Assembly: GCA_016207765.1 (NCBI GenBank)
Contig: JACQOY010000036.1
Location: 1 to 13,671, forward strand
From: Deltaproteobacteria bacterium
GTDB lineage: Bacteria; UBA10199; SBBF01
Direction: 5' to 3'
Length of the DNA: 13,671 bases
Below, piece by piece: positions 541 to 13,667 of the stretch. The position numbers and the translations under genes were made by a program. Each line of letters starts with the position of its first letter. Within the stretch, counting starts at the first letter, position 1. A model generated the notes under the pieces. It saw only the letters and a program-made list of their open reading frames with translations. It had not been told where the DNA came from and did not search any database.

Positions 541-909
541 ATGAGGAAAATATCGGCGCAAATTTTCAATGGAATTAAACGGGGAACGATGTGGATTGCC
601 CAATCGGAACATCTGCCTCGTGAGTCGCTCCCCGCGGCCCAAAAAACGGTCCCCTTCCTTGCCTGGCTTTTTGCCGGGGAGAGGCTGGAGTCGGCCCCCC
701 CGGCGCGGAAAGATCCCGATCGCCGGAACTTTCTGATGTGGATCGCTTCCCCCGAAAAAATTGAGAGGTCGCCGGAGGCGGAAAAGGGGAACGACCGGCA
801 GGGTTTCCTCCGCTGGCTGGTCTCGCAGGAAAAACTCGGGCAAAAACCGGAAGGGGACGGCAAAAGAACAAATTTCCTGAAATGGATTTTTGGAAGGGAG
901 CCTTTGTGA
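541..909 (+). CDS. Small protein with five FLxWLxxxE repeats, first gene of NrfD-type operon
   Basis: I do not recognise this 122-residue family. It has no signal peptide, membrane helix or cysteine, and is basic and hydrophilic between motifs. Five copies of a motif near F-L-x-W-[IL]-x-x-x-E-x-[LI] have Trp at about residues 18, 42, 67, 92 and 115, a spacing of 23-25. The first copy is degenerate (TMWIAQSEHL) and the last (FLKWIFGREPL) is the C-terminus. Linkers are charged and Pro-rich. The reading frame could also begin at ATG 502 or ATG 589. I chose 541 because AAAGGAGG precedes it, although the gap is only 1 nt, and because 502 overlaps the operator palindrome. Its stop overlaps the GTG of the tetrahaem cytochrome gene, so it is translationally coupled to the membrane complex. 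A cytoplasmic scaffold, assembly or membrane-docking role is inference. Confidence 0.75.
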   Translation: MRKISAQIFNGIKRGTMWIAQSEHLPRESLPAAQKTVPFLAWLFAGERLESAPPARKDPDRRNFLMWIASPEKIERSPEAEKGNDRQGFLRWLVSQEKLGQKPEGDGKRTNFLKWIFGREPL

Positions 910-1418
910 GCCTGCGTCATACAAAACATTATTTTCGCGCCGTCTTCCTCATCATCGGGGCGCTTTTTGCCTTTTTCATTGTCAGGGCCTTTTTGCTTCC
1001 CGGCAGTTTTGGGGAATTCGGATACTACCGGGGAGACAATGTGGCCGAACAGATGGCAAAGCCGGTCCGGTTTGCCGCCAGGGAGGCCTGCGCCGATTGC
1101 CATGGCGATATTTGGAAGACGCACCAAAGCGGATCGCACGCCCCCGTCCAGTGCCAGAATTGCCACGACGCGCTCGCCGTCCATTTTGACGTTGAAAAAG
1201 GGGAATTTATCGGGAAAATGCCCATTCAGCGGACATCGAAACTCTGCCTCCGTTGTCACGACGATCTCCCCTCCCGACCGGATGGCTTTCCGAAGATTGA
1301 TCTGGAAGATCACCTGAAAGATATCCCCGATGCGCACAAGCCGGAGGTCTGTTTTCAGTGTCACCAACCGCACAGTCCGAAGATTGGGGACCAAGGACCA
1401 GTGACTCGTGACCAGTGA
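906..1418 (+). CDS. Membrane-anchored tetrahaem cytochrome c of an NrfD-type quinone oxidoreductase
   Basis: The product has 170 residues. An N-terminal membrane anchor (about residues 12-31) is followed by a periplasmic domain with four CXXCH motifs: CADCH (62-66), CQNCH (83-87), CLRCH (114-118) and CFQCH (149-153). Extra histidines (H73, H78, H93, H136, H144, H156) could complete bis-His ligation. It should pass electrons between the iron-sulfur/NrfD module and soluble periplasmic cytochromes, as in Cbc-type complexes of Geobacter. GTG 906 is preferred over ATG 882 because AAGGGAG (894-900) sits 5 nt upstream and the GTG overlaps the previous stop (GTGA). The last codons and the stop come from a heptanucleotide tandem repeat, so the native C-terminus may have been extended. 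The cytochrome call is firm; the exact complex is inferred from the next two genes. Confidence 0.9.
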   Translation: MSLRHTKHYFRAVFLIIGALFAFFIVRAFLLPGSFGEFGYYRGDNVAEQMAKPVRFAAREACADCHGDIWKTHQSGSHAPVQCQNCHDALAVHFDVEKGEFIGKMPIQRTSKLCLRCHDDLPSRPDGFPKIDLEDHLKDIPDAHKPEVCFQCHQPHSPKIGDQGPVTRDQ

Positions 1419-1444
1419 CCAGGGACCAAGGACCAGCGATTCAG
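1389..1444. repeat. Heptanucleotide tandem repeat (8 units near GACCAGT) at a gene junction
   Basis: Eight consecutive 7-nt units share the consensus GACCAGT; variants include GACCAAG, GACCAGG, GACCAGC, GACTCGT and a final GATTCAG. The array covers the last codons of the tetrahaem gene, supplies its TGA stop (1416-1418) and ends 6 nt before the ATG of the iron-sulfur gene, where no good Shine-Dalgarno is left. Since 7 is not a multiple of 3, each unit shifts the reading frame. It reads as a mobile or slippage-derived intergenic repeat rather than coding sequence. Confidence 0.85.
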
Positions 1445-1450
1445 AATTTT

Positions 1451-2263
1451 ATGAATAAAAAAGAAGGAAAAATTGACGAGAAACCGGAAGAAATGGGGCG
1501 GCGTGACTTCATCAAAAAGGGGTGCGAAATAGCCGCCGGCACAATGTTTGTGGGGCTTCTGCCGTTCAAGTCGGCACGGGCCGAAAAAGAAGTCGAGCGA
1601 ATCCCCCGTCCCGAGGGGCACCCCGACTACAACTGGGAAGATCACCTGTATGCCTATGTGATCGATACGCGAAAATGCATCGGTTGCGGGATGTGCGTCC
1701 AAGCCTGCCGGAAAGAAAACAATGTGCCGGAAGGTTTTTACCGCACCTGGGTGGAGCGGTATGAAGTATCGGCAGAGGATGCCATCAAGGTAGACTCGCC
1801 GCACGGAGGAGAAAACGGATTCACAGCCGATACCCCCGGCTTCAATGTGAGCAAGGGCTACTTTGTCCCCAAGATGTGCAACCACTGCTCCAACAGCCCA
1901 TGCACGCAGGTCTGCCCTGTGGGGGCCTCGTACAAAACCAAGGAGGGGGTTGTCCTGGTGGATGACAAACGTTGTGTCGGATGCGGCTACTGCGTTCAGG
2001 CCTGCCCTTATGGAAGCCGGTTTTTGAATCCGGTGACAAAAACAGCGGAGAAATGCACCTGGTGCTACCACCGCATCACCAGGGGGCTCAAACCCGCTTG
2101 CGTGCAGGCGTGTCCTGTCGGGGCGAGGATGTTCGGAGATGTCAAAAAAGAGGATGATCCGGTGCGCAAAATACTGGCCAAGGAGAGGATTCAGGTGTTG
2201 CAACCGGAAAAACTGACCAAGCCGACCTGCTTTTACATCGGACTGGACAAGGGGGTGCGTTGA
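1451..2263 (+). CDS. Tat-exported 4x[4Fe-4S] ferredoxin subunit (DmsB/NrfC/HybA type)
   Basis: This 270-residue protein is the electron-transfer subunit of a membrane oxidoreductase. A twin-arginine signal starts near residue 15 (MGRRDFIKKG), with a hydrophobic segment behind it, so the folded subunit is exported to the periplasm. Four cubane motifs follow in the usual order: CIGCGMCVQAC, CNHCSNSPCTQVCPVGA, CVGCGYCVQACPYG and CTWC-x11-CVQACP. All sixteen cysteines are present. It sits between the tetrahaem cytochrome and the NrfD gene and should link them electrically. The frame is open from 1415, but that stretch is repeat-derived; ATG 1451 gives the sensible Tat n-region, and ATG 1493 is possible. 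No strong Shine-Dalgarno precedes either. Its stop is 1 nt before the NrfD start. Confidence 0.93.
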   Translation: MNKKEGKIDEKPEEMGRRDFIKKGCEIAAGTMFVGLLPFKSARAEKEVERIPRPEGHPDYNWEDHLYAYVIDTRKCIGCGMCVQACRKENNVPEGFYRTWVERYEVSAEDAIKVDSPHGGENGFTADTPGFNVSKGYFVPKMCNHCSNSPCTQVCPVGASYKTKEGVVLVDDKRCVGCGYCVQACPYGSRFLNPVTKTAEKCTWCYHRITRGLKPACVQACPVGARMFGDVKKEDDPVRKILAKERIQVLQPEKLTKPTCFYIGLDKGVR

Positions 2264-2264
2264 T

Positions 2265-3500
2265 ATGGAATATTCGTTTCTCTTTCCCAACGACATGCAC
2301 ATTCACTGGAGCCTCATGATTGTGATGTACCCCTACATCACGGGGCTGGTGGCGGGGGCCTTTGTGGTGTCAGCCCTCTACCATGTGTTCAACATCGAAG
2401 TCTTGAAACCCGTGGGGCGGCTGGCCCTTTTGGCCTCGTTTGCCTTCCTTTGTTTTGCCACGCTCCCCCTCTTGAACCATCTGGGGCATCCCGAACGAGC
2501 CATGAACATCATGATGACCCCAAATTTTTCGTCCGCCATGGCAGGATTCGGCATCATCTACAATTTTTATCTTCTCCTCCTGACGCTGGAGGTATGGCTT
2601 GTCTATCGCGTCGACATCATCGAGTTTGCGAAGACCTCCCGTGGATTGAAGCGTCTTCTCTACAAGACCCTCGCCTTGGGTGTTTATAACGTCAGTCCGC
2701 AGGCGCTCGCCCTGGACCACAAGCTGATCAAGATCCTCGCCGCCATCGGGATTCCCGGCGCCTGTCTCCTGCACGGCTATGTCGGTTTTCTCTTCGGCGC
2801 CCTCAAGGCAAACCCCTGGTGGTCCACCCCCCTCATGCCGATTATTTTCCTTTTTTCGGCGGTCGTCTCCGGTGTGGCGCTCCTGATCATCGTCTACCAG
2901 TTGTGCATGAAAGTAAGGGGCGAACCGATCGATCAGAATTGCCTTTCCGCCATGGCCAGACTCCTCTGGCTTTTCATGACAATCAGCGTCTCGCTCGAAC
3001 TTTTGGAAATCATCACGCTGGCCTATGAACAGGCCGAGGAATGGGAGGTGATCGGCCCCCTGCTCAGCCACCAGCTCTCCTTCTCTTTCATTTCATTGCA
3101 ACTCATTATCGGAGCCCTGATCCCGTTCATCCTGCTCATGATCCTGACCCTCATGAACCGTTACCTGCATGAAAGGGTAAGAAACACCCTTTCCTTTGTG
3201 GCCTCTCTCCTTTTGCTGATCCAGGTATTGTCCATGCGCTGGAATGTGGTGATCGGTGGCCAGATTTTTTCCAAAAGTTTCCGCGGCTTTCGCGATTATC
3301 AACCCCACTTTCTGGAAAAGGAGGGGATTTTGGCCGCCGTGATCATTTTTATCCTTCCCTTCATCCTTCTCTACGTCATCAACCGCTTTCTTCCGGCCTT
3401 CGACTCCCCCTCCGCTTCTCATAACGGTCATGACCCCTTGAAAAACGGGACTTTCGACTCCCCCGCGTGCTGTTACCCCAAAGCAGGAGGCCCCTCCTAG
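2265..3500 (+). CDS. nrfD: NrfD/PsrC-family integral membrane subunit (quinone site)
   Basis: The 411-residue product has about nine hydrophobic helices (roughly 19-41, 52-70, 92-114, 153-178, 188-211, 230-253, 269-297, 306-324, 354-374). Family-like segments include HGYVGFLFGALKANPWW (170-186), the SAVVSG helix, and RWNVVIGGQ (325-333). NrfD proteins bind quinone in the membrane and exchange electrons with an iron-sulfur partner, which is the preceding gene here. Together with the tetrahaem cytochrome this matches the cytochrome c/FeS/NrfD plan of Geobacter Cbc4-like menaquinol:cytochrome c oxidoreductases and of the related core of alternative complex III. No molybdopterin catalytic subunit is present, which favours quinone-cytochrome exchange over substrate catalysis. 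The last 25 residues are polar, contain CC and run into hairpin-forming DNA, so the C-terminus may be a non-conserved read-through. Confidence 0.92.
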   Translation: MEYSFLFPNDMHIHWSLMIVMYPYITGLVAGAFVVSALYHVFNIEVLKPVGRLALLASFAFLCFATLPLLNHLGHPERAMNIMMTPNFSSAMAGFGIIYNFYLLLLTLEVWLVYRVDIIEFAKTSRGLKRLLYKTLALGVYNVSPQALALDHKLIKILAAIGIPGACLLHGYVGFLFGALKANPWWSTPLMPIIFLFSAVVSGVALLIIVYQLCMKVRGEPIDQNCLSAMARLLWLFMTISVSLELLEIITLAYEQAEEWEVIGPLLSHQLSFSFISLQLIIGALIPFILLMILTLMNRYLHERVRNTLSFVASLLLLIQVLSMRWNVVIGGQIFSKSFRGFRDYQPHFLEKEGILAAVIIFILPFILLYVINRFLPAFDSPSASHNGHDPLKNGTFDSPACCYPKAGGPS

Positions 3501-3573: not shown

Positions 3574-5517
3574 TTGATCTCAACCCGTTTAAAAATCGGC
3601 TTTGTGGCCCTTTGCCTTGTCTTTTTCTTTCCGGCCTGCTCCCAGGTCAAACCGACCTCCCAGTCCGATGGAAGCGACGCCTCTCTTTCCCCCGATCCAG
3701 GCAGTTCCGCTATTTTTCCTCATGCCGATGGGTGGGCCGATCCCTCTTCCCACGGCCTTTGGGTCCTAAACAGTGGAGAAACCGTCTGCATGAGTTGTCA
3801 TGAAGAAAACGCATCGACAACCTCGTCAACCACCCCCACTTGCGCCTCGTGCCATCCCCTCTTTCCGCACTCGGACGGCTGGGTCGACAGTTCATCGCAC
3901 GGCGCTTATGTGATCGAATCGGGGGGAACCTCGGCCTGCGCCACCCAATGCCACGGCACCGATCTGGCGGGGGGCTTATCCGGTATTTCGTGCAACACCT
4001 GCCACGACATTTACCCGCATACCACCGACTGGGCGGAGGCCGCCAATCACGGGGCCTCGGCCGAAGGGGATGGAAAAGAAACCTGCACGGCTTGTCACGG
4101 CGACGATCTGGCCGGGGGATTCAGCTCTGTTTCCTGCACCCAATGCCACAGTTTGTACCCTCATGCCGACAACTGGTCCGAAGGGGATCAACATGGGGCA
4201 AGAGTTATGGCCGACGACACCTCGGCCTGCGCCACCCAGTGCCACGGCACCGATCTGGCGGGGGGCTTATCCGGCGTTTCGTGCACCTCTTGCCACAGCA
4301 CTTATCCCCATTCCGGCAATTGGGCTTCTGCCGCTATTCATGGAGCGACGGCGGAAGGGGATGGAAAAGAAGCTTGCAAGGCCTGCCATGGGGATGACTA
4401 CTCCGGGGGAATCAGCTCCGTTCCCTGTTCCCGTTGCCACAATTTGTATCCTCATTCCGACAATTGGGCCGACCCCTCAAGCCATGGTGAAACGGTCAAT
4501 GCCAACGATTCTTCGGTCTGCGCCACCCAATGCCACGGCACCGACCTGGCGGGGGGATTATCCGATGTCTCCTGCAGTTCCTGTCATAGTCTTTATCCCC
4601 ATTCCGACGGGTGGGGGGAATATTCCGGGCATGGGGCCTACGGTTTGACAAACTCAACAACAGAATGTCGGCTTTGTCATGGAACCGATTATCAGGGAGG
4701 GGACAATGGGAGTCCCTCCTGCTACACCTGCCATACAACCTATCCCCACTCAAGCGGGTGGAGCTCTGCCGATGAGCACGGGGTGGCCGCCTATGGAACC
4801 GGCAAAACAAGTTGCGCAACAGCCAATTGTCACGGCGTTAATTACGAGGGAAATGGGGCCACCGTTCCAAGTTGTTCCTCCTGCCACGCCAACTACCCCC
4901 ACACCGATTCTTCGTGGGTTGCCGATGCCGCCTCAACCCATGCGACAACGTTCATCGAGGGAATACTTTCCGGATCGTCCACAATCTGCACGGAGTGTCA
5001 TGGAACCGATTACACCGGCAACACCGGGGTCACCTCCTGTATTTCATGCCACACAAACGGGGTGACCCACACCAGCGGCTGGTCCGATGCAACAGGCCAT
5101 GGTCAGTATTATTCCGGTTACTACACCGCGGCCTCCACCGATGCGAGTTGTCCGGATTGCCACGGTTCCGCGGTCACCTTCGATACGACACAAACCTTGA
5201 GTTCGCTGGAAAGTCAGTCGGATTGCTATGGTTGCCACTGGGCCTATCCGCACACGGGGTGGTCGGGGAGTAGTTACTCATGGGATGTCGACAGCGCGGC
5301 GAATGCCTGGGTGACCCATGCGCTCTACGCCCTCTACAGCCCTCTTCTGATTGATAGTTCCGGAAACACCCCCTCCTCACGACTGACCACCGCCAGTTTG
5401 CCGGCTGTCGAAAACACTTGCGGCGGAGGAACGGCTGGAAACTGCCACTACTCCGGGACCCGCAATCCATTAGACGATCCTTCTGCCTCCAATGTCTGCG
5501 GCGTGTTGTGTCATTGA
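3574..5517 (+). CDS. Outer-surface multihaem c-type cytochrome lipoprotein, 11 dihaem modules (up to 22 haems)
   Basis: This 647-residue protein has a lipoprotein signal (FFFPAC, lipidated Cys 22) and eleven modules of roughly 45-60 residues. The typical module has the pattern [YF]PHxxxW - HG - C..CH(G) - SC..CH, so each pair of haem motifs comes with two spare histidines suitable as distal ligands. Sixteen motifs are CX2CH. Four are CX3CH (CATQCH at 122, 219 and 316; CGVLCH as the last six residues), one is CX4CH (CATANCH at 414) and one is CX7CH (616-625). The architecture suggests a bis-His haem wire on the outer membrane for extracellular electron transfer. TTG 3574 is the only sensible start because an in-frame TGA directly precedes it. 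It converges on the porin-cytochrome operon with a 16-bp gap. No orthologue name can be given. Confidence 0.9.
   Translation: MISTRLKIGFVALCLVFFFPACSQVKPTSQSDGSDASLSPDPGSSAIFPHADGWADPSSHGLWVLNSGETVCMSCHEENASTTSSTTPTCASCHPLFPHSDGWVDSSSHGAYVIESGGTSACATQCHGTDLAGGLSGISCNTCHDIYPHTTDWAEAANHGASAEGDGKETCTACHGDDLAGGFSSVSCTQCHSLYPHADNWSEGDQHGARVMADDTSACATQCHGTDLAGGLSGVSCTSCHSTYPHSGNWASAAIHGATAEGDGKEACKACHGDDYSGGISSVPCSRCHNLYPHSDNWADPSSHGETVNANDSSVCATQCHGTDLAGGLSDVSCSSCHSLYPHSDGWGEYSGHGAYGLTNSTTECRLCHGTDYQGGDNGSPSCYTCHTTYPHSSGWSSADEHGVAAYGTGKTSCATANCHGVNYEGNGATVPSCSSCHANYPHTDSSWVADAASTHATTFIEGILSGSSTICTECHGTDYTGNTGVTSCISCHTNGVTHTSGWSDATGHGQYYSGYYTAASTDASCPDCHGSAVTFDTTQTLSSLESQSDCYGCHWAYPHTGWSGSSYSWDVDSAANAWVTHALYALYSPLLIDSSGNTPSSRLTTASLPAVENTCGGGTAGNCHYSGTRNPLDDPSASNVCGVLCH
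3862..4740 (+). repeat. 291-bp tandem duplication inside the multihaem gene (three copies)
   Basis: Nearly identical DNA recurs at a fixed 291-bp period: the stretch around the CATQCH motif starts at 3931, 4222 and 4513 with only a few substitutions over about 50 bp. Each copy is a four-haem unit of about 97 residues (one module with CX3CH plus one with CX2CH). Copies cover residues 97-194, 195-291 and 292-389. Later modules are diverged, so this block is the youngest expansion of the gene. Confidence 0.85.
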
Positions 5518-7963: not shown

Positions 7964-9295
7964 ATGCAACCAAAACAATTCTTCGCCTTCTTCTTTTTTC
8001 TGTTGATTTTCGCATCCTGCCGGAGCCGGGAAGCCCAACCAACCAACGAGGAACATGGAAACAGGCTCTACGAGGCGCACTGCGCCTCCTGCCACGGCGC
8101 AAAAGGGAACGGCAACGGACCCGCGGCCCCCTATTTGTGGCCGAAACCGCGCGATTTTACGGCGGGTGTTTTCAAATACCGGACCACGCGGGGGCCCTAC
8201 CCCTCCGATACGGAATTGCTCGAGACAATGAAAAAGGGGATCCCCGGCACTTCGATGCCCGGATGGGATATATTGAAGACCAACGACTGGCGGGATATTC
8301 TCGCCACGGTAAAACGTTTCATCCCCCACATTGAGGATAGCGCCGCCGGCCCCTATATCGAGGTCCCTGTTGAGGCAAAGGCGACACTCGAATCGATTGA
8401 AGAAGGGAAAAAATTGTACGAGACGGCCGGTTGCCCCGCCTGCCACGGTCCTCAGGGGCATGGTGATGGTCCTGCCGCGCAGATTTTAAGGGACATTTGG
8501 GGGCAAACAATTTCACCGCGGGATTTGACGCACGGGCCGCTTAAATGGGGCAACCTGAACAAAGAAATCTATCGCACCCTGCTGATGGGGATCCCCGGGA
8601 CCCCCATGCCGGCCCATGAGGGGACTTTCACTCCGGCGCAGATTTGGTCGCTGGTCCATTACATCAAGGCGATCCAGAAAATGCCCGCTGATTACAACCC
8701 CTCCGATCCCAAGCGGTACCTGATCGACGTGGTCCAAATCGACGGGGAATTGCCCGATGATCCGGCGGCCAACGCCTGGCAAAAGGCAAAAGGGGTTCCT
8801 GTTTTTCTCAAACCTCTCTACAGCGCACCGAACATCCCGGAATGGCTGACGGTCAAGGCCCTTTCCAATGGAAAAGAAACAGCCTTTTATATCTCTTGGG
8901 AAGACGACCTCCCCGACATGAAAGAGGGAAGAAGCGACGGGGTTGCCGTGCAACTTCCCACAAAAGAAATTTCCGATCCCTCCGAGCTCCCCTATCTGGG
9001 AATGGGACATTCCGGCAATCCGGTTGAAATCTGGAAATGGGAACCGGGGGGCTTAAGAAGATTTGCCTCAAACGGCATCGGCACCCCTTTAACGCTTCTT
9101 CCTTCTGAAGCGGAGAAGGTGCATGAAAAGGGGGCCTACGACAACGGCCGATGGCATGTGATCCTCAAAAGCTCCTCTTTCAAGAGCGGCGGTTACCTTT
9201 CGTTTGCCTTGTGGGATGCCGATATCATGAGTCATGCCGGACCCGAAACTTTTTCGGAGTGGATGCAGTATTCCCCTTCGGCAGAGGGAGATTGA
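7964..9295 (+). CDS. Lipoprotein with two cytochrome c domains and a C-terminal EB_dh-like haem b domain
   Basis: The product has 443 residues. A lipoprotein signal ends FASC (Cys 19). Two mono-haem domains follow: CASCH (40-44) with Met in GTSMP (98), and CPACH (157-161) with Met in GTPMP (215). Residues 245-435 resemble the haem b-binding gamma subunits of ethylbenzene dehydrogenase, selenate/chlorate reductase and nitrite oxidoreductase, including 'YLGMGHSGNPVEIWKW' with probable axial Met 347. In that family a second axial ligand is a Lys in a G-K-x-x-S-x-W segment near the C-terminus; here the matching segment is GPETFSEW, with no Lys. The protein probably joins soluble or enzyme-bound electrons to the respiratory chain at a membrane face. 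No molybdopterin partner is in the window. It is separated from ccoN by 73 bp containing its own operator, so it is likely a single-gene unit. Confidence 0.85.
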   Translation: MQPKQFFAFFFFLLIFASCRSREAQPTNEEHGNRLYEAHCASCHGAKGNGNGPAAPYLWPKPRDFTAGVFKYRTTRGPYPSDTELLETMKKGIPGTSMPGWDILKTNDWRDILATVKRFIPHIEDSAAGPYIEVPVEAKATLESIEEGKKLYETAGCPACHGPQGHGDGPAAQILRDIWGQTISPRDLTHGPLKWGNLNKEIYRTLLMGIPGTPMPAHEGTFTPAQIWSLVHYIKAIQKMPADYNPSDPKRYLIDVVQIDGELPDDPAANAWQKAKGVPVFLKPLYSAPNIPEWLTVKALSNGKETAFYISWEDDLPDMKEGRSDGVAVQLPTKEISDPSELPYLGMGHSGNPVEIWKWEPGGLRRFASNGIGTPLTLLPSEAEKVHEKGAYDNGRWHVILKSSSFKSGGYLSFALWDADIMSHAGPETFSEWMQYSPSAEGD

Positions 9296-9332: not shown

Positions 9333-9368
9333 TATTTTCCTCTGCATGATTTTGTGGTAGCGGCTCTT

Positions 9369-10754
9369 ATGGATAAAAAGCAGATAGCCGTCGTTTCCGG
9401 ACCTCTTGTCCGGGTGTATGTTTACGTCGCGCTCTTCGGCATTCTGGTCCCGCTCTCTTTCGCCCTGATCCTTGCGGCAAAATTTGTCTGGCCCGATTTT
9501 CTGGGAACCATTTCCTGGCTTCAGTTCGGCCGAATCCGTGTTTTTCACACAAACGGCGTGATCTTCGGATGGCTGGGGCTTTCTTTTTTTGGAATCCTCA
9601 ACTACTGCGTCCCCAAGCTGGCAGGGCGCCCGCTCCTTTCCGAAAAACTGGCCTGGATCACCCTTTACGTTCTGGTTGCAGGTGTGGGCATCGGATTGAT
9701 TGCCGAACTGGCCGGAGGAATGCAGGGGATCGAATATGCCGAATTTCCCTGGTACGCCGACATCATCTTCGCCGCCGGTTTTGTCATGGCGAGCATCAAC
9801 TATCTCGGCACCCTTTTCAAATCGGACGAAAAACAACTCTACGTCAGCTCGTGGTATTTCATCCTCGGTTTTTCCTTCACTGTTTTCAATTATGTGATGG
9901 GTAATGTCATCCCCGCCTATTTTGCGCCGGGGGCGGCCGGCGCCGCCATCACCGGATTGTGGATCCACAACGCCGTCGGCCTTTTTGTCACGCCGATGGG
10001 GGTGGGGATTGTCTATTTCATCCTTCCGGTTCTGCTGGGAAAACCGGTCTACAGCCATCTCTTGTCGCTCCTTGGTTTTTGGACATTGGCTTTCTTCTAC
10101 CCTCTCGGCGGATCACACCACTATTTTTTCAGCCCCATCCCGTGGTGGGTGCAGGTACTGGCGGTTCCACTCACCGCCGTTCTCTTTGTGGTTGTGGTGA
10201 CGGTGGTCTACAACTGGTTTATGACCCTTAAAGGATCGTGGGGGGAAATCCCCAAATCACCGGCGCTGGCCTTTATGGTCACCGGCATATTCGCCTACAT
10301 GGCGACATGCACGCAAGGCCCCTTTCACGCCTTTCTTTCGGTTCAAAAAGTGATCCACTTCACCGATTGGGTGGTAGCCCACGCGCACCTGGCCCTCTTC
10401 GGCGCTTTTTCCTACTGGGTGATCGGAAGCATCCTTTATCTGTGGCCTTTTGTAACCGGCAAACCGCTCGTCTCGCCCGGCCGCCAGTGGACCTCTTATT
10501 GGCTTCTGACCCTCGGTTTTTATGTCTTCTATTTCGCTCCGATAACAGCCTCCGGTCTCCTTCAGGGTTACTATTGGATAACAGGGGCGCCGTTTGCCGA
10601 TTCGGTGATTAACTCCGGACCTTTCTGGTTTGCGCGCCTGATCGGCGGCGTCCTGATGTATGTCGGCATGGTGCTGTTCGCACGGGAACTGTTTGTCTCG
10701 GCCAAAGGGATTGCCAAAAAAGCTCATTCGGGGGCTATGGGAGGCTCCGCATGA
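9369..10754 (+). CDS. ccoN: cbb3-type (C-family) haem-copper oxidase catalytic subunit I
   Basis: The 461-residue product is close to the usual length of CcoN, with about twelve membrane helices. Key residues align with cbb3 oxidases: low-spin haem b ligands H60 (FGRIRVFHTN) and H340, high-spin haem b3 ligand H338 (DWVVAHAH), CuB ligands H200 (WIHNAVG), H250 and H251 (GGSHHYFF), and Tyr 244, six residues before the HH pair where the cross-linked helix VII Tyr belongs. The typical IEYAEFPW segment is present. This supports O2 reduction rather than NO reduction. At the position of the conserved Glu in STFEGP (22 residues before the proximal His) there is Gln 316. ATG 9369 is chosen; the frame is open from a GTG at 9354, but no Shine-Dalgarno supports either. 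Its stop overlaps the next start (ATGA). Confidence 0.93.
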   Translation: MDKKQIAVVSGPLVRVYVYVALFGILVPLSFALILAAKFVWPDFLGTISWLQFGRIRVFHTNGVIFGWLGLSFFGILNYCVPKLAGRPLLSEKLAWITLYVLVAGVGIGLIAELAGGMQGIEYAEFPWYADIIFAAGFVMASINYLGTLFKSDEKQLYVSSWYFILGFSFTVFNYVMGNVIPAYFAPGAAGAAITGLWIHNAVGLFVTPMGVGIVYFILPVLLGKPVYSHLLSLLGFWTLAFFYPLGGSHHYFFSPIPWWVQVLAVPLTAVLFVVVVTVVYNWFMTLKGSWGEIPKSPALAFMVTGIFAYMATCTQGPFHAFLSVQKVIHFTDWVVAHAHLALFGAFSYWVIGSILYLWPFVTGKPLVSPGRQWTSYWLLTLGFYVFYFAPITASGLLQGYYWITGAPFADSVINSGPFWFARLIGGVLMYVGMVLFARELFVSAKGIAKKAHSGAMGGSA

Positions 10755-11893
10755 ACCGGTTTGAACGCTTCGAGGGGATTTTTCTTGTCGCCGGCATCGG
10801 CTTTTTTCTTCTTTCGTTTTTGGGAATGGGGCTGGCGCCGTGGACCACTCTCAAAAAACTCAAAATGATCCCTGAAGGAACGGGGCGAACGGCCGAGGAG
10901 GAACTGGGGAGAACCATTTTTATCCACGAGGGATGCTGGCACTGCCACACGCAGTTCGTTCGGCCGGTTGCGGGGGAACCCCGACGGTACGGCCCGGTGT
11001 CTCAGGCGATGGAACACATCAATGAAATCCCCCAGCTGTTCGGCACCCGCCGAGTCGGCCCCGACCTTGCGCGCGAAGGGGGCAAAAGAAGCAATGATTG
11101 GCACCTCGCCCATTTTTACAACCCGCGTTTGACGGTCCCCTGGTCGGTCATGCCCGGTTTTCCATGGTTCTACAAAAAAGAAGGGGGAAAAATCATCCCG
11201 ACCGAAAAGGCCAAAGCCCTCACGGCCTATATGCAGTCACTGGGAAAATCGGCCAAGGCCCAAATGGAAAAAGCGGAGGAGGAATACCGGAAAAACTTCC
11301 GCATCGGCTCCATCCTCCCCCCGGGCGATGATCTTCTGGAAAGGGGCAAGGAGTTGTTTGCCGAAGAATGTAGCGGCTGTCACGGCCCGCAGGGAGACGG
11401 CAACAGCGAGGCGAATAAACTGCTTCTGCCGGCTCCCGCCGACCTGACCGAGGATAATCCAACGCCCGAATATGTTTACACGGTTCTCCACAAGGGAATC
11501 CCCGGTTCCGCCATGCCTCATTTTCGCGACTGCCCGGAGGAAGACATTTGGGCGCTTTCTTACTATGTTGTCTCTCTGGAACCAAAGGAGAAAGAACCGG
11601 TGATACCTCCTCCCTCCCCCGAAGTAATTGACCGCGGCAAGGAGATCTTCTCCACCACCTGTGCGGTCTGTCACGGAGCGGAAGGGCGCGGCGATGGACC
11701 AGCCGGGATCGCGCTCAAACCGTCCCCACCTGATTTCCATGGCATGAGGCCGTCCTTCCGCCATATCGTGGATACCTTGTCAAAGGGGATTCCGGGAACC
11801 GCCATGGCCCCCTTCGTTCAGCTTTCCGCCGGGGACAAGGAGGCTCTCGCCTTTTATATCCGGTCATTGTATACTGCCGGGGAAAAACAATGA
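10751..11893 (+). CDS. ccoO: CcoO-CcoP fusion: trihaem cytochrome c subunit of cbb3 oxidase
   Basis: The product has 380 residues. An N-terminal anchor (about 9-29) and a CcoO domain come first: GCWHCHTQFVRP (haem at 62-66), RRYGPVSQ, GTRRVGPDLAREGGKRS and WSVMPGFPW with axial Met 134. A charged linker (about 165-190) leads to two CcoP-like cytochrome c domains: CSGCH (207-211) with GSAMPHF Met 255, and CAVCH (304-308) with GTAMAPF Met 352. Canonical cbb3 oxidases use separate CcoO (one haem) and CcoP (two haems with their own anchor); here all three haems are in one chain with one anchor. It should carry electrons from soluble cytochrome c to CcoN. GGGAGG 6 nt upstream supports ATG 10751. 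The last codon overlaps the following gene. Confidence 0.93.
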   Translation: MNRFERFEGIFLVAGIGFFLLSFLGMGLAPWTTLKKLKMIPEGTGRTAEEELGRTIFIHEGCWHCHTQFVRPVAGEPRRYGPVSQAMEHINEIPQLFGTRRVGPDLAREGGKRSNDWHLAHFYNPRLTVPWSVMPGFPWFYKKEGGKIIPTEKAKALTAYMQSLGKSAKAQMEKAEEEYRKNFRIGSILPPGDDLLERGKELFAEECSGCHGPQGDGNSEANKLLLPAPADLTEDNPTPEYVYTVLHKGIPGSAMPHFRDCPEEDIWALSYYVVSLEPKEKEPVIPPPSPEVIDRGKEIFSTTCAVCHGAEGRGDGPAGIALKPSPPDFHGMRPSFRHIVDTLSKGIPGTAMAPFVQLSAGDKEALAFYIRSLYTAGEKQ

Positions 11894-12156
11894 TGATTCA
11901 TCTTAAACAATGGGGGAGGAAAATTCTGTTTACGGGAATGTTTTGCATTCTTGGCGGCGGCAATGCCTTGGCCTGTCCTTTTTGCAATATTGACGGATGG
12001 GTGGTGCGTAATTTTGTGCTGACCGTTTTCGGACTCGCGTTGACCGGTTTTTTCTTTCTTCTGATCTGGTCGATAAAAAGGGGGCAGTACAAAGACCCCG
12101 AGGCTCCGAAATACCGTCTTCTGGAACTCGACCGAAAGACGGGGGTGCGTCTTTAA
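11890..12156 (+). CDS. CcoS-like small membrane protein with a CPFC motif
   Basis: The product has 88 residues. An N-terminal hydrophobic segment ends in ALACPFCNIDG, then a membrane helix (about 42-60) runs into IWSIKRGQYKDPEAPKYRLLELD. The last part closely resembles the CcoS signature (W-x-V-R-S-G-Q-F-D-D-x-E-x-P followed by R-x-L), a small protein needed for cofactor insertion into cbb3 oxidase. Typical CcoS lacks the N-terminal signal and CPFC; the pair of cysteines would face the periplasm and could handle copper or disulfides (inference). It begins inside the previous stop (ATGA), so it is coupled to ccoO-P. The call rests on the C-terminal motif and operon position. Confidence 0.7.
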   Translation: MMIHLKQWGRKILFTGMFCILGGGNALACPFCNIDGWVVRNFVLTVFGLALTGFFFLLIWSIKRGQYKDPEAPKYRLLELDRKTGVRL

Positions 12157-12336: not shown

Positions 12337-12936
12337 TCATCCTCCCACTTTCAGCGTTAATCCCACCGCGCCGCATAATTTAACCAGATTTGACAATCGG
12401 ATATCCCCCCCTTTTTTGAATTTATTCAGGGTCATGGCGCTCAAGCCTGTTTTTTCGGAAAGAGTTCGGAGAGTCATCGACATTTCGCGGCATTTGGCAA
12501 AAACCATCCTGCTTGCATCCGATGTGTTTTGAACAACCGTTTCTTGCAACACCGGCGATTCTGCCAAACCCAAACCGCTTCGCTGTACAAAAACACGACA
12601 TTGCGGATCTATTTCAGCCAATTTTTCCATATTCTTTTTTTCAAGCCGGCTGGATAGAAGAAATTGGGTCAATAGCGGTGTAATCTCCTTGAGCAGGAGG
12701 GCAACGTTATTTTCACTATTTACAAATTTTGTTTTCCTGTACTCCGTTCGTTCACCAACATACCCCAATTCGTTGCAGACCAAGCTCAAAAAAACCTCGA
12801 GTTTGTCATCTGTCGGCGCCCGGTCAAAATCGATCAGCAGATAAGGTTCCGCAATTTTCCAGCGGGCAACCCTGGATTTTATGGAAAGTTGCAGGGCGTT
12901 GATGAATTGTTCAATCTCTTCCTTTGAAGGATTCAT
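12337..12936 (-). CDS. XRE-type helix-turn-helix protein with an unknown N-terminal domain
   Basis: The product has 199 residues. About residues 152-199 form a Cro/C1-type DNA-binding domain (TLRTLSEKTGLSAMTLNKF followed by LSNLVKLCGAVGLTLKV), like the HipB/XRE class. Residues 1-150 are soluble and match nothing I recognise. The start ATG overlaps the kinase stop (ATGA), and GGAGG lies 5 nt upstream, so the two proteins are made together. By analogy with HipBA this would be the DNA-binding autoregulator or antitoxin. Two points are unusual: the regulator comes second, and its HTH is C-terminal behind a large extra domain. Codon use looks more AT-rich than in the oxidase genes, compatible with acquisition by transfer. 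Confidence 0.8.
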   Translation of the reverse strand: MNPSKEEIEQFINALQLSIKSRVARWKIAEPYLLIDFDRAPTDDKLEVFLSLVCNELGYVGERTEYRKTKFVNSENNVALLLKEITPLLTQFLLSSRLEKKNMEKLAEIDPQCRVFVQRSGLGLAESPVLQETVVQNTSDASRMVFAKCREMSMTLRTLSEKTGLSAMTLNKFKKGGDIRLSNLVKLCGAVGLTLKVGG

Positions 12937-13667
12937 GGCTTCCTCCGGTATAATTGGGTGACATCCTGGATGCTGGTACAGTTCAGCGCCCGATGAATCC
13001 GGTTGACAAGGGCTTCGGTTTGCACTGCCGACCGTAACGGCACCAGCTTGGACACCCCACCGCCGACAAGATCGGTCATTCTTTCGCTGACAGGAACCTT
13101 GAAACGCTTTTGCAGTTCCCTCCTCCCTCCTGCTTCATAGTACGAAAGATAATCGGGCATGCTTCCCGAATATTCCATAAAACAGTGGGAAGAATCGATC
13201 AGGACTATCTCGCCGTTGACATAGTCACAAAGATAATTGGCATCGTGCCGATCAGCCTGCCCGGTTATCCAGTCAAAGAGGGCGCATTCAAAAACATTTT
13301 CCGTTTTGAAATCCGTCTTCCCGTAAAAAGTCTTGTAGGTTCTTGCGTCGGGCAAATCCAGCCACCGCTGGACCGTCGCATGATCATCGATGAGCCACAA
13401 TTCCGGCACGCGAAGCCCCAAAGAGCGGGCCAGGCAAAAGGCCCAATACTCTCTTTCGGCCAGCGAGCCCTGTTTGGGATCAATCTGGCACTCCTTGTGA
13501 TTTCGGGGAGATACCCTTTTCAGAAAAAGCTTTCCCTCGGGGGTCTGATACAGCTCCTGCACGGCCGATTGGCCGCGGGAGGGATAATTTTTGGTTGCCA
13601 GGGGAAGAGGACATCCCCCGGCAATAAGCCTTTTAATGTCCACCGGGGTTAAAAGAGGAGATCCCAT
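12933..13667 (-). CDS. PI3/4-kinase/HipA-like fold protein kinase, partner of the HTH gene
   Basis: The visible 244 residues look like a compact kinase of the HipA/PI3-4-kinase superfamily: a probable ATP Lys (GKLFLKR, K50), a conserved Glu region (SLAEREYWAFCLARSLG, 68-84), a hinge-like VQRWLD (99-104), a catalytic loop with TGQADRHDANYL (D139, N144) and a metal Asp in IVLIDSSHCF (D158). It is much shorter than HipA (about 440) and lacks that protein's N-terminal subdomain. All core catalytic residues are present, so it should be active. It is co-translated with the downstream HTH gene. ATG 13667 is 4 nt from the window end and the frame is still open there, so the true start may lie further upstream. 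The substrate is unknown. Confidence 0.75.
   Translation of the reverse strand: MGSPLLTPVDIKRLIAGGCPLPLATKNYPSRGQSAVQELYQTPEGKLFLKRVSPRNHKECQIDPKQGSLAEREYWAFCLARSLGLRVPELWLIDDHATVQRWLDLPDARTYKTFYGKTDFKTENVFECALFDWITGQADRHDANYLCDYVNGEIVLIDSSHCFMEYSGSMPDYLSYYEAGGRRELQKRFKVPVSERMTDLVGGGVSKLVPLRSAVQTEALVNRIHRALNCTSIQDVTQLYRRKP

Follow-up and report, generated by a model that had tools for sequence, protein, structure and literature searches.

A tandem-repeat protein encoded directly upstream of a tetrahaem cytochrome is a candidate cytoplasmic partner of one clade of NrfD complexes

We describe a family of proteins built from short tandem units that is found in several bacterial phyla and whose genes immediately precede a tetrahaem cytochrome gene; judging from sequence and gene order, these proteins probably dock on the inner face of the NrfD complex. 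NrfD complexes are widespread energy-conserving enzymes, and their described partners are mainly redox subunits. What is new here is a predicted partner of NrfD complexes that is conserved, non-redox, repeat-built and cytoplasmic, and that occurs in several phyla. If this prediction is true, some NrfD complexes are organised or regulated from inside the cell.

One member of the family is encoded in the window, by which we mean the whole 13,671-nucleotide stretch of DNA that was analysed (Table 1). Its product contains no Cys and carries Trp at residues 18, 42, 67, 92 and 115, with spacings of 24, 25, 25 and 23 residues, and its stop codon (TGA, 907-909) overlaps the GTG start of the tetrahaem cytochrome gene (906-908). 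A preliminary description of this DNA had reported the same Trp positions, a spacing of 23-25 residues, the lack of Cys and the GTGA coupling, and recomputation and translation gave identical results. It had also reported five regular Trp motifs. The pattern is real, since W[ILV]xxx[ED]x[LI] is found at five places in the protein and at most twice in any of 100,000 composition-preserving shuffles (no occurrence in 98,635, one in 1,361, two in 4, and three in none), but F-L-x-W is present in only four of the five units, the first having G-T-M-W instead. A reading of the product as a membrane protein was dropped on hydropathy, no part of the protein being strongly hydrophobic (the Kyte-Doolittle mean over 19 residues peaks at 0.61). 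The start is uncertain: the ATG at 541 has an AGGAGG at a distance of just one base, an in-frame ATG at 502 would add MAEHAWKEKYKGG, an extension shared in part with the relative P0002 (MAEFAGKEKYQRR), and both are possible.

Table 1. Features of the repeat gene and the operon that it leads in the window
Feature	Position	Strand	Remarks
Trp-motif repeat protein	541..909	+	122 aa; possible alternative start at 502
Repeat unit 1, GTMWIAQSEHLP	583..618	+	degenerate at F-L
Repeat unit 2, FLAWLFAGERLE	655..690	+	
Repeat unit 3, FLMWIASPEKIE	730..765	+	
Repeat unit 4, FLRWLVSQEKLG	805..840	+	
Repeat unit 5, FLKWIFGREPL	874..906	+	
Tetrahaem c-type cytochrome	906..1418	+	four CxxCH; Pfam Cytochrome_C7; alignment A2; one N-terminal membrane anchor
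KHYFR, cytosolic tail of tetrahaem cytochrome	924..938	+	aromatic co-varies with repeat gene
FeS subunit	1415..2263	+	Fer4 domains; Tat-like RRDFIKKG near N-terminus (by eye)
NrfD-like membrane subunit	2265..3500	+	Pfam PF03916, E 5.3e-40; alignment A1

The operon in the window encodes all three subunits sought, namely a membrane-anchored tetrahaem cytochrome, a multi-cluster FeS protein and NrfD. Elsewhere in the window, positions 3574-5517 encode a 647-residue multihaem protein with 16 CxxCH, four CxxxCH and one CxxxxCH motifs; three of the four CxxxCH are CATQCH at a spacing of 97 residues, possibly a tandem array of non-canonical haem sites. The gene at 7964-9295, in which two cytochrome c domains are fused to a haem b domain of the ethylbenzene-dehydrogenase type, adjoins cbb3-like oxidase genes (9354-12156), and two overlapping reading frames on the reverse strand (12337-13667) look, from reading alone, like an Xre/HipA-type pair.

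When 5.8 billion proteins were searched with the single sequence, P0002 was the sole relative besides the window's own protein, and the gene could have been read as an orphan; this reading was overturned by synteny and then by profile searches. We fetched operons with an orthologous NrfD, for which 22 of 60 genomes gave a match, some of them distant, and collected 13 wider loci. Weak matches to the repeat protein were present at the same operon position in three of the 13 (G025, G044 and G027). A profile of the unit, run over the 23,140 open reading frames of loci L001-L124, added three of the 80 named loci, with a clear gap below them: L045 (a Spirochaetia MAG), L046 (LJ_bin-5039) and L050 (Candidatus Sulfomarinibacter kjeldsenii). 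Searches with alignments then yielded 16 and subsequently 30 proteins, 34 different ones including the window's own, with E values down to 1e-65; among these 34 are three named as hypothetical proteins, two of Planctomycetota and one of Deltaproteobacteria. Two further carriers, G494 and G499, are presumably Anaeromyxobacter strains. The repeat gene is thus no orphan, and its carriers belong to several bacterial phyla.

The profile search of other genomes that the preliminary description had proposed, together with reading by eye, placed homologues in 43 distinct genomes: 12 from the near and sampled set, seven, four and 18 from three phyla surveyed more fully, and the carriers of L045 and L050. 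The 12 came from a survey of 385 genomes in which at most ten candidates were scored per genome. In the phylum of G292, nine of 12 genomes have the repeat gene (seven new), as do five of 68 (four new) in that of G324. In the phylum of G223, it was found in 19 of the 20 genomes with an in-clade NrfD (see below), 18 of them new: ten were detected by profile at E 1e-3 and eight by eye, and G223 itself was known earlier. The twentieth, G569, ends at a contig edge.

In all 43 carriers the tetrahaem cytochrome gene starts directly downstream of the repeat gene, at distances ranging from a start/stop overlap, seen in several genomes, to 274 bases. In G020 the contig ends 15 codons into the tetrahaem gene and the remainder lies on another contig; in G438 the tetrahaem gene has a broken reading frame. 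The search for NrfD, which covered all carriers but the seven newly found in the G292 phylum, detected it in 35 genomes and gave nothing above threshold in G444. The neighbourhood anticipated by the preliminary description, with hits beside cytochrome and NrfD genes, therefore recurs. At L163 (G156) and L166 (G292), the repeat gene is immediately preceded by a second FeS-NrfD pair. Several of the operons also have nearby a recurring long open reading frame, whose start we labelled, from reading, as coiled-coil-like.

The repeat gene is confined to one clade of NrfD. Across the 385 genomes, 39 have an NrfD at E 1e-60 or better, and these fall into 18 scoring at least 587 bits and 21 scoring at most 506. 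The repeat gene is present in 12 of the 18 genomes of the high-scoring clade and in none of the 367 others (21 plus 346; Fisher p 1e-18, ignoring relatedness). Five in-clade genomes (G009, G016, G030, G035 and G037) keep the operon and lack the repeat gene, the upstream frames having been read with no match; in the sixth, G195, the contig ends inside the cytochrome gene, so that presence of the repeat gene is not assessable. In a 64-row NrfD tree, which was made by a quick method and leaves several forks open, all 14 carriers fall in one clade of 20 rows (SH-aLRT 81, not starred). With G195 left out, four changes on this tree suffice for the distribution of the repeat gene, the simplest history being a single gain with three losses. 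The phyla surveyed later agree: an in-clade NrfD occurs in four of the 68 genomes of the G324 phylum, all four of them carriers of the repeat gene, and in the G223 phylum no repeat gene lies upstream in three additional genomes whose NrfD scores below 520 bits.

Consensus units read F-L-x-W-[LVI]-x-S-x-[ED]-x-L-P and occur in 2 to 7 copies per protein at a median spacing of 25 residues; copy number thus varies, a point that the preliminary description had proposed to test. In 204 units from 45 sequences, some of which are the same gene or near-copies and so not all independent, F is present in 70%, L in 50%, W in 89%, [LVI] in 95%, S in 45%, [ED] at position 9 in 97%, the following L in 83% and P in 60%, percentages that lean to the motif because the profile was seeded with it. 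Some units were missed by the profile (spacings near 50), and the phylum of G223 is represented by G223 alone, the proteins found there later having been left out. The acid and Leu positions are therefore strongly conserved and the Trp position mostly so; absence of homologues, or homologues with neither conserved Trp and Glu positions nor a link to cytochrome operons, had been named as the outcome that would count against the proposal, and neither was found. In 18 further proteins of the G223 phylum, W occupies its position in 15 of 42 loosely matched units, the others having mostly L, V or F. We conclude that Trp is not essential to the unit. The units are rich in F, L and W and the linkers are charged; unit cores have an average net charge of -0.47. 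The units had been proposed to be amphipathic, of which their hydrophobic moments (0.15-0.44), modest and unremarkable, give no clear sign.

Between G156 and G292 synonymous differences are more frequent than non-synonymous ones, with a pS of 0.76 and a pN of 0.36 for unit cores and 0.73 versus 0.43 for whole units; the contrast between units within a gene is small (0.44 versus 0.34 in G156, 0.55 versus 0.46 in G292). Changes in copy number are seen directly: P0022 and P0030 have their flanks in common and differ in length by 77 residues, where collapse of the assembly is possible, and in G388 pieces of the repeat array lie on two contigs, one piece each. As the preliminary description had supposed, the family is not a named one: the window's protein matched no Pfam or NCBIfam family at E 0.01, all Pfam and NCBIfam matches of ten relatives were below the cut-offs, and profile A5 of the family gave no match at E 1 to PDB sequences. 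No such repeat protein was described in the titles and abstract openings of the literature matches listed. One member, P0032 (266 aa), has three repeat units and then a hydrophobic C-terminal part that matched neither Pfam nor NCBIfam and had no convincing counterpart in the loci (best E 0.34).

In two genomes (G027 and G505) no stop codon separates the repeats from the N-terminal tail of the cytochrome, which continues in the same frame, an internal start still being possible. CxxCH motifs that follow a single N-terminal hydrophobic stretch indicate a cytoplasmic N-terminus. The CxxCH motifs of the cytochrome lie behind one such stretch, and hence its N-terminus and the repeats should face the cytoplasm. 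The in-frame fusion to this cytosolic N-terminus would therefore place the repeat protein in the cytoplasm, and lends support to the cytoplasmic or membrane-edge location suggested earlier.

The tail itself co-varies with the repeat gene. By direct count, [KR]H-x-[FWY]-R is present in the cytochrome tail of 42 of 43 carriers versus one of the five in-clade genomes that lack the gene (Fisher p 1e-4 for the aromatic, ignoring relatedness). The exceptions are G035, which has no repeat gene and keeps F, and the fusion genome G505, which has V. The signal amounts to three losses, in two of which the aromatic changed. In a first column scan of 13 carriers versus the five losers, which asked for columns that keep one residue class in all carriers and differ in three or more losers, the tail aromatic was the only one of 140 tetrahaem columns to pass; none of 208 FeS columns passed, and the lone passing NrfD column of 370 differs in one lineage only. 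In an enlarged automatic scan no tetrahaem column passed and the tail column was not recovered, we think because the tail was misaligned; one FeS and four NrfD columns passed, each differing in one losing lineage. Outside the clade the motif is present at two of 34 loci, a further two giving no match to the cytochrome, and also in G656, one of three further out-of-clade genomes. We regard the co-variation as a clue to docking, a lead and not a proof.

The reading that we favour, held tentatively and at rather less than even confidence, is that the repeat protein acts as a multivalent linker in the cytoplasm and docks on the tail of the cytochrome. It would be an accessory protein dedicated to one clade of tetrahaem-FeS-NrfD quinone:cytochrome oxidoreductase complexes. 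Each unit would fold into a short helix and bind the tail motif, with its hydrophobic side against the tail aromatic and its acid paired to the basic residues. With the units arrayed in tandem on variable linkers, a single molecule could hold several complexes together on the cytoplasmic side of the membrane, and unit number would set how many. That the linker gathers complexes through the tail into inner-membrane arrays, whose size is tuned by expansion and contraction of 23-28-residue repeats, is a further step that we consider possible but would not count on. A somewhat unlikely alternative is a peripheral membrane stabiliser, whose units would lie as in-plane interfacial helices around the complex with no specific binding to the tail. 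The composition of units and linkers and the replacement of Trp by other hydrophobic residues suit such a role, as does fusion to a membrane-anchored N-terminus, which puts the units at the membrane edge. Set against this are the near-invariant acid at position 9 and the negative cores, acidity of a kind unusual for binders of anionic membranes, together with the modest hydrophobic moments and the tail co-variation, which suggests a protein contact.

The tight coupling of the genes, and the position of the repeat gene before the subunit it would serve, would also suit a co-translated assembly factor, a chaperone that delivers the tetrahaem or FeS/NrfD subunits to the machinery for export or haem attachment and then dissociates. 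Two to seven tandem copies, or permanent fusion to the client, are not obviously needed for this, and five in-clade operons do without the gene; we consider it improbable. Tandem motifs in the cytoplasm would equally suit a platform that brings to the complex another cytoplasmic protein, such as a dehydrogenase or positioning factor, but no consistent second partner gene was noticed beside the operon in a non-systematic reading of ten loci, and we give this proposal little credence. Start/stop overlaps in several genomes would fit a leader reading frame whose translation, and not its product, controls that of the cytochrome. We set this aside as very improbable because of the conservation at the protein level across phyla (profile E down to 1e-65) and the in-frame fusions; pN is also lower than pS.

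Several known systems share features with the operon in the window. Geobacter Cbc4 consists of CbcS, CbcT and CbcU, discussed together with NrfD/PsrC-type relatives (PMC11434368), and has the same three kinds of subunit (c-type cytochrome, FeS and membrane), a likeness by composition alone; unlike the window operon, Cbc4 comes with no mention of a repeat protein in the parts of that source available to us. The FeS and NrfD pair is also common to the QrcABCD and NrfCD module, in which the menaquinone site is periplasmic and protons are taken up from the cytoplasm (PMC13059093); the available parts of that account likewise mention no repeat protein, in contrast to the window operon. The FeS and NrfD proteins of the window match QrcC/QrcD and DsrO/DsrP models, below the cut-offs. 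The Rubisco linkers EPYC1 and PYCO1 cross-link their enzyme complex through tandem short stickers (PMC10288592), and the repeat protein resembles them in its tandem short motifs, variable linkers and variable copy number. The PDB search gave no sign of common descent. We propose by analogy that the repeat protein may work like EPYC1 and PYCO1 in principle, its partner being a bacterial membrane complex where theirs is Rubisco.
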